NCBI GenBank assembly: GCA_945911015.1
Contig: CAMDZW010000016.1
Location: forward strand, 1 to 64,000
Length of the DNA stretch: 64,000 bases
Direction: 5' to 3'
Origin: an uncultured Propionibacteriaceae bacterium
Lineage (GTDB): Bacteria > Actinomycetota > Actinomycetes > Propionibacteriales > Propionibacteriaceae
The notes under the pieces were generated by a model. It was not told where the DNA came from. It worked only from the letters and a program-made list of their open reading frames with translations, and searched no databases. The translations under genes and the position numbers were made by a program. Positions 540 to 49,589 of this stretch are shown piece after piece; within the stretch, counting starts at the first letter, position 1, and each line of letters begins with the position of its first letter.

Positions 540-562
540 ATGTCAGAGCCGACCGGTAGGCT
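540..562 (+). promoter_or_regulatory. Predicted DNA-damage (RecA-NDp/PafBC-type) promoter of the methyltransferase-dinB operon
   Basis: ATGTCAGAG (540-548), 8 nt, then TAGGCT (557-562), followed by 7 nt and the GTG start at 570. The mycobacterial LexA-independent damage promoter is TTGTCAGTG-N8-TAnnnT. This site matches 7 of 9 positions with exact spacing. The same layout occurs before uvrB, uvrA and uvrC in this window. Seven bases between the -10 and the start codon imply a leaderless transcript. Confidence 0.6.
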
Positions 563-569
563 CACCACC

Positions 570-1355
570 GTGAACCAGAACCGGAACCTGCCCGAGTCCA
601 CCGGCCCTGCCGCGGCCCCGCGACCTGCTTCCGGTGTGGGCTCGGTTGCCGGAGGCCGGTCGGTGCCGCAGGCGCAGCTGGCCCGGGTCCTCGAGTCCCA
701 GCTGGCCAGCTGGCAGCAGCGCACCGGCCGTCGGGAGGCCGCCATTGTCGACGTCGGCGGTGGGACCGGTGGGATGGCGACCCACCTTGCTGCCAGCGGA
801 CACACCCTCACCGTGATCGACCCCAGCCCCGATGCCCTCGCCTCACTCAGCCGTCGCGCCACTGAGGCCGAGGTCGCCGACCGGGTGACCGGCCGCCAGG
901 GCGATGCCGGTGATGTCAGTTCGTTGATGGGGGAGTCCAGCGTCGACGTCGTGCTGTGTCACCGTGTCCTCGACGTTGTCGACCAGCCAAGTGAGGCCCT
1001 CACCTCGATGGCGGCCGCACTACGCCCCGACGGTTTGATCAGTCTGCTGGTCCCGGGTCGCCGCGCTGCCGCGCTCGGTCACGCAATCAATGGCCAGATC
1101 GAGGCGGCCGATCAGGCCATGGACGATCCGCGTCGCTTTGACCTGGACCAGATTGTCGCTCTCTTCGACGCGGCCGGTCTCGAGCTCGTCGCCGAGCACG
1201 GCATTGCCGCCCTCGCGGATCTGGTCCCCGAGTCAGCCGTCGAATCGAGCGCCGCCCGGCAGCGACTGCTCGAGCTCGAGGTGCGACTCAGCACCGACCC
1301 GGTCTTCCGCGCCCTTGCGGCCCATCTCCACGTCACCGGCCGACCTCGACCATGA
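570..1355 (+). CDS. Class I SAM-dependent methyltransferase
   Basis: A 261-residue protein with a Rossmann methyltransferase core. The SAM-binding glycine loop VDVGGGTGG lies near residues 60-68 and the acidic ribose-binding residue near 84 (TVIDPS). A motif-IV-like stretch (VDVVLCHRVLDVV) and a post-core LRPDGLISLLVPG follow. The first 35 residues are low-complexity. The substrate cannot be told from sequence. GTG 570 was chosen because the similarity begins after it and a -10 hexamer sits 7 nt upstream. An upstream ATG at 435 would extend the frame into the divergent gene's start region. The stop overlaps the ribosome site of dinB, so the two are one operon. The shared damage promoter suggests a repair- or stress-linked role, which is inference. 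Confidence 0.85.
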   Translation: MNQNRNLPESTGPAAAPRPASGVGSVAGGRSVPQAQLARVLESQLASWQQRTGRREAAIVDVGGGTGGMATHLAASGHTLTVIDPSPDALASLSRRATEAEVADRVTGRQGDAGDVSSLMGESSVDVVLCHRVLDVVDQPSEALTSMAAALRPDGLISLLVPGRRAAALGHAINGQIEAADQAMDDPRRFDLDQIVALFDAAGLELVAEHGIAALADLVPESAVESSAARQRLLELEVRLSTDPVFRALAAHLHVTGRPRP

Positions 1356-1368
1356 GGAGCATCCGCCC

Positions 1369-2652
1369 GTGACCGACCCACCCGTGACTGACCCGCAGGC
1401 CGTGGGTGACATGCAGGCCGTGGGTGACATGCAGGCCGTGGGTGACATGCAGGCCGTGGGTGACCCTCAGACCGTGGGTGACACGGGCCGAGTGGTCCTG
1501 CATGTCGACATGGATGCGTTCTTCGCCTCGGTCGAGTTGCGGGACCACCCCGAGCTTCGCGGTCGCCCCATGATGGTCGGCGGTGCGGTACGAGGTGTTG
1601 TGGTCTCGGCGACCTATGAGGCCCGGGCCCACGGCGTACGATCCGGGATGCCGGTGGCCCAAGCACGACGGCTGAGCCCGACCGCAGTCGTGATTCCGCC
1701 GCGGCACGATGTTTACCGGGAGGTGTCGCGAGCGGTCTTCACCGTCTTCGACGATGTCACCCATCTGGTCGAAGCCGCCTCGGTGGATGAGGCCTTTCTC
1801 GACATCACTGCGACCATCCGTCGAGTGGGCACCCCGGCCACGATCGGCCAACAGCTCCGGTCCCGGATCGCGCGCGAACACGGCATCACCTGCTCGGTCG
1901 GGATCGCCCCGACCAAGCTCGTGGCCAAGATGGCCTCCACTTCGGCCAAACCTGATGGGTTGCGGATCGTGCCGCCCAGCCGGGTCCTGGAGTTTCTCCA
2001 CCCGATGCCGGTGGAGAAGCTGTGGGGTGTGGGGGAGGCGACCGCCACCCGGCTCCATCGCTTCGGCCTACGCACCATCGGCGAACTCGCCCAGACACCG
2101 CTGGACTCCCTGGTCCACACCTTCGGACCCCATCAGGGCCGTCACCTGTTCGATCTGGCCCGAGGCCACGATCCGCGGCCGGTCGTGGCCGGTGAACGGG
2201 AACGCAGCGTCGGTTCGTCGGAGACCTTCGGCGTCGACACCGATGATCGGTCGGTGATCGGCACCGAACTGCTCCGGATGGCAGACCGCACTGCCAGCCG
2301 GCTTCGCACCGCCGGCCTGATGGCCCGTACGGTCGCCGTCACCATCCGCTATGCCGACTTCACCACGATCACCCGGTCGATGACCCTGCCCACACCGACC
2401 GATTCCAGCTCTGACCTGCACCGGGCCGCGCTCACCCTGTTCGACCGCCTCGGTCCGCTGCCGCGAGCAGTCCGACTCGTCGGAGTGCGGGGGGAAAACC
2501 TCGTGGAAGCGTCCCGGGCCGAGATCCAACCCACCCTGGACGAACCGGACACCGGCTGGCGGGAAGCCGAAGCGGCCGTCGATGAGGCGATCGCCAAGTT
2601 CGGCACGGGGGCGGTCCATCGGGCCGTTCTGGGCCGGCGTCGCCGCCGTTGA
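1369..2652 (+). CDS. dinB: DNA polymerase IV (Y-family translesion polymerase)
   Basis: A 427-residue Y-family polymerase, which copies past damaged bases with low fidelity. The palm motif HVDMDAFFASVE holds the first metal-binding Asp (residue 47) and steric-gate Phe (52). SVDEAFLD near residue 140 supplies the other acidic residues. CSVGIAPTKLVAKMAS and KPDGLRIV complete the family pattern. GTG 1369 has a GAGGAG ribosome site 9 nt upstream. From that start the protein carries an extra roughly 38-residue N-terminus made of hexapeptide repeats, which ordinary DinB lacks. A later in-frame GTG at 1474 would give the usual length but has no comparable ribosome site. The gene lies 13 nt after the methyltransferase gene in one operon. 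Confidence 0.93.
   Translation: MTDPPVTDPQAVGDMQAVGDMQAVGDMQAVGDPQTVGDTGRVVLHVDMDAFFASVELRDHPELRGRPMMVGGAVRGVVVSATYEARAHGVRSGMPVAQARRLSPTAVVIPPRHDVYREVSRAVFTVFDDVTHLVEAASVDEAFLDITATIRRVGTPATIGQQLRSRIAREHGITCSVGIAPTKLVAKMASTSAKPDGLRIVPPSRVLEFLHPMPVEKLWGVGEATATRLHRFGLRTIGELAQTPLDSLVHTFGPHQGRHLFDLARGHDPRPVVAGERERSVGSSETFGVDTDDRSVIGTELLRMADRTASRLRTAGLMARTVAVTIRYADFTTITRSMTLPTPTDSSSDLHRAALTLFDRLGPLPRAVRLVGVRGENLVEASRAEIQPTLDEPDTGWREAEAAVDEAIAKFGTGAVHRAVLGRRRRR
1396..1485 (+). repeat. Five tandem 18-bp repeats in the 5' end of dinB
   Basis: Five consecutive 18-bp units start with CAGGCCGTGGGTGACATG. The first three are identical, and the fourth and fifth differ in the last codon and by one substitution. 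They encode QAVGDM-type hexapeptides in frame with dinB. Confidence 0.95.
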
Positions 2653-2769
2653 CGGCCGGGGTGCACCGATCCGGACGGGCCCGTGTTCCCAAGCTGGGTC
2701 CGGGCGCATAGACTTGCCGCACAACGACCAGTCGATGCCCGTTGCGGTATCGCGACCCAGGAGGTGACA

Positions 2770-3171
2770 GTGGCCCTTTCAGAGTCGGAGCGGCGGCTGT
2801 TGGACCAGATGGAGAAGGCGCTCGCCGCCGAAGATCCCAAGCTGGCCAAGACCTTCCGCGGTGGACCCCAGCCACGGCGCGTCCATCCGAAACGCGCCAC
2901 AGCAGCTGGTCTCGGTTTCGTTGCCGGGGTCGCCCTGCTCGTGGTCGGCATGATGACCTGGCCCGGACTGAGCGTGATCGGCTTCGTCGCCATGGTCGCG
3001 TGTGCGGTCATCGCACTCCAGTCGTGGCGTCCGGTGGTCGACGACGATGACATCACGGGGGGACCCGGACCGGACTCGCCCCGCAGCACCAGTCGTACGC
3101 CCGACCAGGACTCCGGATTCATGGACCGGATGGAGGAGCGCTGGCGTCGCCGGCGTGACGAAGACCTCTGA
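2770..3171 (+). CDS. DUF3040 family membrane protein
   Basis: A 133-residue small membrane protein of the actinobacterial DUF3040 family. It opens with the diagnostic LSESERRLLDQMEKAL and LAKTF. Two hydrophobic segments (about residues 45-63 and 66-83) are followed by a charged Asp/Arg-rich tail. GTG 2770 is preceded by an ideal AGGAGGTG ribosome site. Function is unknown. The family commonly sits near mraZ and the division cluster in Actinobacteria, as here. The gene converges on the transglutaminase gene with only 27 bp between stops. Confidence 0.88.
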   Translation: MALSESERRLLDQMEKALAAEDPKLAKTFRGGPQPRRVHPKRATAAGLGFVAGVALLVVGMMTWPGLSVIGFVAMVACAVIALQSWRPVVDDDDITGGPGPDSPRSTSRTPDQDSGFMDRMEERWRRRRDEDL

Positions 3172-3198
3172 GCTGAGGCCACCCTCTCCTGGCGCGGA

Positions 3199-5460
3199 TC
3201 AACCGGCGCGCCTACCTGATCGCGGCTTCATCAGCGACGGCGGCAGCAGGGCCATCCGGATCCGCTGCCCACGGCTGGCCGGTTCGGCCAGGGCGGTCCG
3301 GATGTCACTGACCAGCGTCACCAGCTCTGGTTGCCCGACGCTCCCCGGCGTCCGGGCATACCGGGCACGTTCCACCAACACCGCCAGTTCGGTGACCTGT
3401 GGCGCCGCAGTCGCGAGCAGCCCCGTGCTGAGTTGATCGCTGATCACCCGCGGTGAGCCCGACGGCCAACTGCCACGAGCATCGATCACGCTGTCGCGGA
3501 CCTCGGCCCAGGCGTCTTCGACGGACTCTCCCAGATCACCACCACCACTGAGCCGGCGGCGACGTCGGAGGGCCCGAAGGGTGCCGGGCAGCAGCAGAAC
3601 CGCGACCACCACGACCAGCCCCAACCCGGCTCCGATGGTCTGTGCCAGACCCCACCGAGCATCGGGCAACTCATTGGGGCCGAGCGGGTCGTCGCTGGGC
3701 TCGGCATTGGGATCCGACGGCTGCAGAGTCGGTTCGAAGGTCGGTTCTGCCTCGTCGGTCGGCTCGGTCGAGGTTGGTGGGGCAGTGGTTTCGTCTCCGC
3801 TCCCGGACCGCTGCAGGGTCCAGTCCGGTGGCACGGTCCCGTTGCCCGGCGTCGGCTCCCAGCGGGTCCACCCGATCCCTTCGAAGTACAGCTCCGGCCA
3901 GGCATGGAGATCGTGGGTGGTGACCTCCCAGGTGTCGCCGACCTTGTCACCGGGCAGGAAGCCGATCGCGACCCGAGACGGGATGCCCAGCACTCGCGCC
4001 ATCACCGCCATCGCGGCGGCGAACTGTTCGCAGTAGCCTCGTTGGTCCTCGAAGAGGAAGTTGGTCAACGCCTCGTAGCCTGATCCGGGCGCGGGCTCGG
4101 TCGAGTACTCGAAGGTGCCGCCGCGCAGATAGGCCTGCAGTGCAGCGGCCTTCAACGCATCGGTCGGGGCCTCCGCAGTGATCTCGAGGGCCAGTGCGAC
4201 GATCTCGTCGGGGAGGTCGGCAGGGAGGGTGCCGGTGATGTCGACATCGTCGGGACTGCCGCCACGAGCCACGCTGAGTCGTTCGCCGTCCGGATCCAGG
4301 TCGACGCTGTCCACCGAGTAGGTCAGATCCCGGGTGGCCCGGCCACGGTCACCGCTGGTCGCAATGTAGACCAGACTGAGCGGGTCATAACCCCACTCGC
4401 CGGGGACGATCAACTGCCGCGGGAAGTACGGCAAGGGAAGGTATTCGCTGTCGAAATCGCCGATCTGGATCTCGGTGTGGCGACGTTGCGGTGACTCGGC
4501 GTTCACTCCCGGAATCCGGCCGGGCTGGCCGGGCAGGACGTCGATGGCCGAGTTCTGCCAGCCGTTGGCATCCAGATATGGCAGCGAAGCGATCCGCAGG
4601 TAGACGCCCTCATCACGATCGTCGGCGTCGGCCGGAGCTGTGGTGGTGTAGGTCAGCACCGGGACGTCATCGGGACGGTTCAGATTGCGCCGCAGATCCA
4701 GAGTGGGATCGCTCAGCTGCAGCGGTCCGGCGCCGCCGTCGCCATGACCTCCGGGGACAAAACTGAGTGAGCCGGTCGGGATGGCCAACCAGGCGACCAG
4801 GGACAGCGCAATGGCCGGGACCACGACCACGGCCGCTGATCCCCACAGGACCGGACTCACGGACCGGGTCGGATGGGCCGGGTCGTCGATGACGCCGCGG
4901 CGCCACCGTTCCGTGCGGTTGATGCCCTCGGCGAGCAGGATCAGGCAGTAACCGGCGATGACCGCAACACCAGCAACCGGACTCAGGTCGTCGGCCAGGG
5001 CCAGCGCCGGGATCAGGAACAGGGTCAGTCCGGGGGCCAGGCCCCACGACGGGCGGGCCAGCACACTGACCAGCAGATCGGTCAGCACCAAGGTGGTGCC
5101 GACCGCGGTCACCATGAGCCAGACCACCGCGGGGCTGGCTTCCATCGGCGCGGACTGGCTCTCCAGGTGGTGCACCCCGGCCGCAGCAAGTTCCCGTACG
5201 GCCTCGACTGGGCCCAAGTCGTCGGCGAGAACAACCGCGAGCCCACCCGAGATGCCGATCAGCACGGCCAGCTCGCTGATGAGAGCCCCGGCCTCTCCGG
5301 CGACCGTTCGACGAACGAGCGCGGTCACCACCGACACCAGGGCCATCGCCCCCAACGACCACAGCACGAAGCTGCGGTCCTGGGTGATCGGAAACAGGGT
5401 CAGCATGGCCAGGGCCGTGGCGGCGAAACTGGCCAGCGACAACCGATCGGAGGCTCGCAT
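3199..5460 (-). CDS. TgpA-like membrane transglutaminase domain protein
   Basis: A 753-residue membrane protein. The N-terminal ~220 residues are mostly hydrophobic helices. A large extracytoplasmic part carries a transglutaminase-like fold with Cys477 in GYCEQFAAAM and His519 in DLHAWPEL. Next come a Thr/Pro/Glu-rich linker, another membrane helix and a cytoplasmic tail starting with a basic RRRRR stretch. The order matches the TgpA/DUF3488-DUF4129 family. It is last of a moxR-DUF58-transglutaminase operon, and its ATG shares one base with the DUF58 stop (TGATG), so translation is probably coupled. Role in peptide-bond or envelope processing is inferred from the family, and the substrate is unknown. 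Confidence 0.88.
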   Translation of the reverse strand: MRASDRLSLASFAATALAMLTLFPITQDRSFVLWSLGAMALVSVVTALVRRTVAGEAGALISELAVLIGISGGLAVVLADDLGPVEAVRELAAAGVHHLESQSAPMEASPAVVWLMVTAVGTTLVLTDLLVSVLARPSWGLAPGLTLFLIPALALADDLSPVAGVAVIAGYCLILLAEGINRTERWRRGVIDDPAHPTRSVSPVLWGSAAVVVVPAIALSLVAWLAIPTGSLSFVPGGHGDGGAGPLQLSDPTLDLRRNLNRPDDVPVLTYTTTAPADADDRDEGVYLRIASLPYLDANGWQNSAIDVLPGQPGRIPGVNAESPQRRHTEIQIGDFDSEYLPLPYFPRQLIVPGEWGYDPLSLVYIATSGDRGRATRDLTYSVDSVDLDPDGERLSVARGGSPDDVDITGTLPADLPDEIVALALEITAEAPTDALKAAALQAYLRGGTFEYSTEPAPGSGYEALTNFLFEDQRGYCEQFAAAMAVMARVLGIPSRVAIGFLPGDKVGDTWEVTTHDLHAWPELYFEGIGWTRWEPTPGNGTVPPDWTLQRSGSGDETTAPPTSTEPTDEAEPTFEPTLQPSDPNAEPSDDPLGPNELPDARWGLAQTIGAGLGLVVVVAVLLLPGTLRALRRRRRLSGGGDLGESVEDAWAEVRDSVIDARGSWPSGSPRVISDQLSTGLLATAAPQVTELAVLVERARYARTPGSVGQPELVTLVSDIRTALAEPASRGQRIRMALLPPSLMKPRSGRRAG

Positions 5461-40770: not shown

Positions 40771-40793
40771 CTGTCAGCAGGGCGCCGTACGCT
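40771..40793 (+). promoter_or_regulatory. Predicted DNA-damage (RecA-NDp/PafBC-type) promoter of uvrB
   Basis: CTGTCAGCA (40771-40779), 8 nt, TACGCT (40788-40793), then 6 nt to the ATG at 40800. The spacing equals that before uvrA and uvrC and the known mycobacterial damage promoter. No ribosome site is present. Confidence 0.65.
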
Positions 40794-46028: not shown

Positions 46029-46051
46029 TTGTCAGTGGGGCCGCCTAAGCT
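46029..46051 (+). promoter_or_regulatory. Predicted DNA-damage (RecA-NDp/PafBC-type) promoter of uvrA
   Basis: TTGTCAGTG (46029-46037), 8 nt, TAAGCT (46046-46051), then 7 nt to GTG 46059. It is identical to the mycobacterial consensus TTGTCAGTG-N8-TAnnnT, the best match of the four such sites in the window. Confidence 0.78.
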
Positions 46052-49566: not shown

Positions 49567-49589
49567 CTGTCAGGGGCGGGGCCTACGCT
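49567..49589 (+). promoter_or_regulatory. Predicted DNA-damage (RecA-NDp/PafBC-type) promoter of uvrC
   Basis: CTGTCAGGG (49567-49575), 8 nt, TACGCT (49584-49589), then 7 nt to ATG 49597. It begins 3 nt after the Rieske gene's stop. Confidence 0.65.

Follow-up and report, generated by a model that had tools for sequence, protein, structure and literature searches.

A promoter of the PafBC type very probably drives an operon of a methyltransferase gene and dinB at the start of the window, as the whole 64,000-nucleotide stretch of DNA analysed here is called. DinB is an error-prone (translesion) DNA polymerase, and its damage-induced production would be the main selected effect of the arrangement, with the methyltransferase as a co-induced passenger. 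We put the probability of this reading at roughly two in three. Upon DNA damage, PafBC activated by single-stranded DNA would enable the sigma-A RNA polymerase to use an element at positions 541–562. The transcript would start at or beside the GTG at position 570, leaderless, and carry both genes. Since the promoter stands before its gene in this genus, the methyltransferase, which has a CmoM-like fold, would be induced along with DinB. On the sequence evidence, propionibacteria too would make use of the PafBC response, which has been studied mostly in mycobacteria, and would include a translesion polymerase in it. The link between PafBC and dinB bears on LexA-independent mutation-making under stress in these bacteria.

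Promoter element and operon

PafBC-type promoters are turned on by actinobacteria upon DNA damage. Those of mycobacteria, also named RecA-NDp promoters, were reportedly treated by Gamulin in 2004 and by Muller in 2018. All window features given here lie on the forward strand. Positions 541–562 read TGTCAGAG-CCGACCGG-TAGGCT (full string TGTCAGAGCCGACCGGTAGGCT), that is, TGTCAG-N10-TAGGCT. Based on pattern counts and the published consensus, TGTCAG (541–546) was assigned as the −26 element of a PafBC (RecA-NDp) promoter; TAGGCT (557–562), 10 nt past the hexamer, was assigned as the −10 element (TANNNT) from the sequence and the genome pattern counts. The whole fits the PafBC motif as published, TGTCGG/TGTCAG-10N-TA-3N-T (PMC8151990). 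A gap of 7 nt (563–569) separates TAGGCT from the GTG of the methyltransferase gene. The preliminary description of this DNA had placed a damage-type element 7 nt before this GTG, and a check of the sequence found both the coordinates and the description to be right. By eye, no −35-like hexamer was present at the usual place (534–539, TGCTCG). No SOS box (TCGAAC-N4-GTTCGA, at most one mismatch) was found in the window within 300 nt upstream of the methyltransferase gene or dinB, and LexA control of the operon was rejected on this ground.

Transcription is predicted to start at 569–570, based on the 7-nt spacing seen at many other matches of the motif. The motif, this shared spacing, the excess of genome matches (34 against 6, see below) and the presence of PafB and PafC make it very probable that 541–562 is a PafBC promoter yielding a leaderless bicistronic mRNA. 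A promoter inside the methyltransferase gene or a separate dinB start may exist as well.

The methyltransferase (570–1355, 261 amino acids) was recognised as a class I SAM methyltransferase from its open reading frame, domain and fold matches. The next gene, dinB (1369–2652), encodes DNA polymerase IV. It begins with a GTG 13 nt past the methyltransferase stop, with GGAG at 1355–1358, in agreement with the operon proposed earlier. In domain searches PF00817, PF11798, PF11799 and NF003015 scored over cut-off, covering the IMS catalytic, HhH and little-finger domains (IMS, IMS_HHH, IMS_C), and the catalytic motifs HVDMD and SVDEA are present. At the start of dinB a repeat search revealed an in-frame tandem repeat of 18 bp (1395–1483, 4.9 copies, 92% matches), which encodes QAVGDM units at the N-terminus of DinB. 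Because of this repeat the true start of dinB is uncertain. It is possibly a slippage-prone site in a slippage-prone polymerase.

Elsewhere in the genome a distant relative of DinB (29% identical; C1:98929–99534), which we take by guess to be ImuB-like, lies near a LexA-like box (C1:100303). In this genome LexA may control one set of mutagenesis genes, and PafBC may control dinB. In Streptomyces venezuelae, dnaE2-dinP is LexA-controlled (PMC9380542). That operon resembles the one in the window in that a dinB-family gene stands within a damage-controlled operon (here predicted), but its control is LexA repression, whereas PafBC activation is predicted here.

PafBC and its predicted regulon

PafB and PafC are encoded in the genome as an overlapping pair (C48:1446–2453 and 2450–3433), matching the M. 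smegmatis PafB and PafC chains at 1e-50 and 3e-39 and followed by Tat-like ORFs, as judged by eye. PafBC activated by ssDNA lets sigma-A RNA polymerase use promoters bearing the −26 element (PMC11804915). In mycobacteria UvrABC are PafBC targets (PMC8223512), and Rv1955 of M. tuberculosis, which has a RecA-NDp promoter, is induced by mitomycin (PMC2897130).

The pattern TGTCRGNG-N8-TANNNT occurs three times in the window against 0.05 expected. Besides the methyltransferase gene, it precedes uvrA (46030–46051, GTG 7 nt on) and uvrC (49568–49589, ATG 7 nt on). Before uvrB (40772–40793, ATG 6 nt on) the core TGTCAG-N10-TACGCT is present without the NG extension. The sharing of the element with uvrA, uvrB and uvrC, noticed before, therefore holds for all three genes at a distance of 6–7 nt, with uvrB in the core form.

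Genome-wide, TGTCRG-N10-TANNNT gave 34 matches against 6 for the reversed control pattern. An earlier pattern with variable spacing and TAGNNT had shown no excess (18 against 17 for the control); the excess emerged with the spacing fixed at 10 nt and the −10 box loosened to TANNNT. About half of the 34 matches lie 6–9 nt before a start codon, with 7 nt by far the commonest distance, which is the layout of leaderless mRNAs. The genes behind the matches mostly concern replication and repair. By Pfam these include exonuclease V gamma, a UvrD-type helicase, DciA, a PriA domain protein, dnaX, dnaE, dnaB, YbaB and a DEAD-box helicase (recG by eye); radA and recA, the latter with a 54-nt leader, were added by eye. 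Genes with no known repair role also follow the element, namely those for a glutamate dehydrogenase, UbiE, a rhomboid protein and an ABC transporter (Pfam). Since the regulon includes such genes, membership alone is no proof of a repair role. The element stands 6–7 nt before the genes of the UbiE-type methyltransferase (C6:54899, L007), the NAD-type glutamate dehydrogenase (C20:5543, L056) and the rhomboid protease (C6:89666, L008).

The resemblance to mycobacterial PafBC promoters thus extends from the motif and the missing −35 hexamer to the presence of PafB and PafC and a regulon with UvrABC and RecA. It differs in that the predicted promoter stands before a methyltransferase–dinB operon of a propionibacterial genome. 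Among the papers searched, none treated PafBC with methyltransferase–dinB as its target, or with such a methyltransferase. Very probably this promoter is an added member of the known PafBC regulon. Element, PafB/PafC, the replication and repair regulon and the fixed position in a congener (below) all bear out the LexA/RecA-independent promoter type named in the preliminary description.

Conservation among relatives

In the congener G197, beside which no further genome of the genus was found, TGTCGGTCCGGGCCGGTAGGCT (TGTCGG-N10-TAGGCT) is separated by 8 nt from the same VNQNR start, which it precedes, and the methyltransferases of the two genomes are 67–71% identical. The motif directly before this gene was therefore seen in two genomes of one genus. 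In a global alignment of the two spacers the region was gapped differently and the hexamers did not fall opposite one another, so their correspondence rests on the register to the start codon. The next closest relative, G199, was left out of the motif comparison because its contig ends too near the methyltransferase gene. A search for the motif in other Propionibacteriales had been proposed; among the genomes compared, it is kept in the congener but lacking in most other genera. None of 80 distant named methyltransferase orthologues had a PafBC motif within 300 nt upstream; orthologues elsewhere have −10-like TAGGNT boxes near the start without TGTCRG. PafBC and LexA sites 150–300 nt upstream of the methyltransferase gene in several related genera were rejected as proof of a methyltransferase promoter, since they are part of a distinct structured RNA, found 1–5 kb away in other genomes.

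The adjacency of methyltransferase and dinB is frequent in Propionibacteriaceae, Nocardioides and Nonomuraea and is kept as well in Kineococcus, Arsenicicoccus and one Micrococcales MAG. The Kribbella and Streptomyces loci fetched retain the methyltransferase with dinB not adjacent. A PafBC motif of its own lies within about 100 nt of the dinB core in G042, G099, G036, four Actinoplanes-type genomes and a Geodermatophilaceae MAG, with no match of the reversed pattern in the same upstream windows. A LexA box precedes dinB in G217, and in some genomes both kinds of site occur together before it. Such damage sites of dinB were also found in lineages lacking the methyltransferase. Loci with an own PafBC and/or LexA site upstream of dinB are L069/L244 (G042), L253, L245, L158, L170, L183, L184 and L191. 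Together, the sites of dinB elsewhere, the absence of the motif before the 80 orthologues and the methyltransferases without dinB suggest that damage control recurs at dinB and that the methyltransferase largely comes along with it in this genus.

From the promoter it had been suggested that the methyltransferase is part of a mutagenesis or repair response. The promoter type, the regulon and the position in the congener speak for the promoter itself, but the step from promoter to role is not well supported, given the same conservation pattern and the non-repair genes in the regulon. In its full form the idea gives the methyltransferase a dedicated damage role, for instance the modification of tRNA, of DinB or of a damaged nucleotide while translesion synthesis is under way, with the operon selected for joint induction. 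The conserved adjacency in several actinobacterial lineages and the placement of the promoter before the methyltransferase gene rather than before dinB in this genus would fit. Such a role is nevertheless doubtful in view of the 0 of 80 count, the Kribbella and Streptomyces loci and the dinB genes retained with their own damage sites where the methyltransferase is missing.

An unlikely alternative is a constitutive sigma-A promoter, with a hexamer that arose by chance or no longer responds, and an operon that is not damage-induced. The TAGGNT boxes of the orthologues and the presence of the element before genes without a known repair role would suit such a promoter; the 34 matches against 6, the hexamer and −10 box kept in G197 and the lack of a −35 hexamer argue against it.

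Nature of the methyltransferase

Only generic class I Methyltransf domains scored over cut-off in Pfam, and no DNA-methylase domain of the restriction or Dam/Dcm type did. The best NCBIfam model was CmoM, at 83.5 bits against a cut-off of 366. CmoM is the tRNA cmo5U34 (wobble-uridine) methyltransferase of E. coli. For the predicted structure (pLDDT 92), CmoM structures were the best matches by both Foldseek and VIA-align, the latter with Z of 29.3 and 27.9 and 24.8 for the next. A profile of the methyltransferase family matched CmoM at 4e-40 and other chains at 5e-12 or weaker. The likeness to CmoM (PDB 4htf, 8joz) covers the class I SAM fold and a full-length alignment in which D73, H119 and H249 are kept.

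CmoM reads cmo5U via R26, W124, Y247 and R209, and its helix alpha-1 is essential (PMC10516636). In the window's protein R26, W124, Y150, R209, R246 and Y247 are replaced by P, V, P, A, A and H respectively, whereas most distant orthologues retain R26 and R209. The N-terminal helix alpha-1 has no counterpart within the aligned part, and CmoB was not found in the genome (best 20.9 bits, cut-off 275). That the protein is a true CmoM, methylating tRNA cmo5U34 and linking decoding to the damage response, is most improbable: the best sequence and fold match over the full length stands against the low model score, the lost recognition residues and the missing CmoB, and the identification was rejected.

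The preferred reading, of a passenger co-induced with DinB, is thus combined with an enzyme on a CmoM-like scaffold that is not CmoM, as follows from the fold match, the lost residues and the lack of CmoB. Most likely it would act on RNA or a nucleotide-like substrate and have a housekeeping job in other actinobacteria. The promoter brings this actinobacteria-wide methyltransferase within reach of a simple test.

A structured RNA near the operon in relatives

In several relatives a structured RNA lies between a damage promoter and the methyltransferase gene. It contains a conserved CUUGGGGAAG element and a long hairpin whose loop is of the CUCGACCCC type. A LexA box stands where the RNA is predicted to start, and many relatives also have a PafBC element 31–32 nt upstream. 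The RNA was found 0.1–5 kb upstream of methyltransferase–dinB, or of dinB alone, in Propionibacteriales relatives (L064, L066, L069, L072, L076, L080, L081, L109–L119, L122 and L124). Covariance model R1 also located it in the window's genome (C3:4772–4882, reverse strand, E 2.7e-12; L129/L116), where it adjoins rplU and the PafBC part is not recognisable. Weak R1 matches in Nocardioidaceae lie upstream of the methyltransferase gene in the same orientation.

RNA, methyltransferase and dinB might form one ancestral damage-response neighbourhood of the Propionibacteriales, whose RNA and methyltransferase would tune translesion synthesis or post-damage decoding; the genus of the window would then have put the PafBC promoter directly on methyltransferase–dinB and split off the RNA. 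This is a speculative and distinctly unlikely scenario.

By eye, CUUGGGGAAG occurs in differing reading frames after the LexA box and is therefore unlikely to be coding. The RNA shows covariation: in the hairpin 14 of 17 pairs were changed on both sides (over 18 rows, including one antisense match), a figure favoured by an alignment that was fitted to the covariance model; none of 500 shuffles reached the observed values. Rfam gave no credible match and the literature search no SOS-regulated small RNA of such a kind for actinobacteria, and the structured RNA is possibly a more novel finding than the methyltransferase–dinB promoter.
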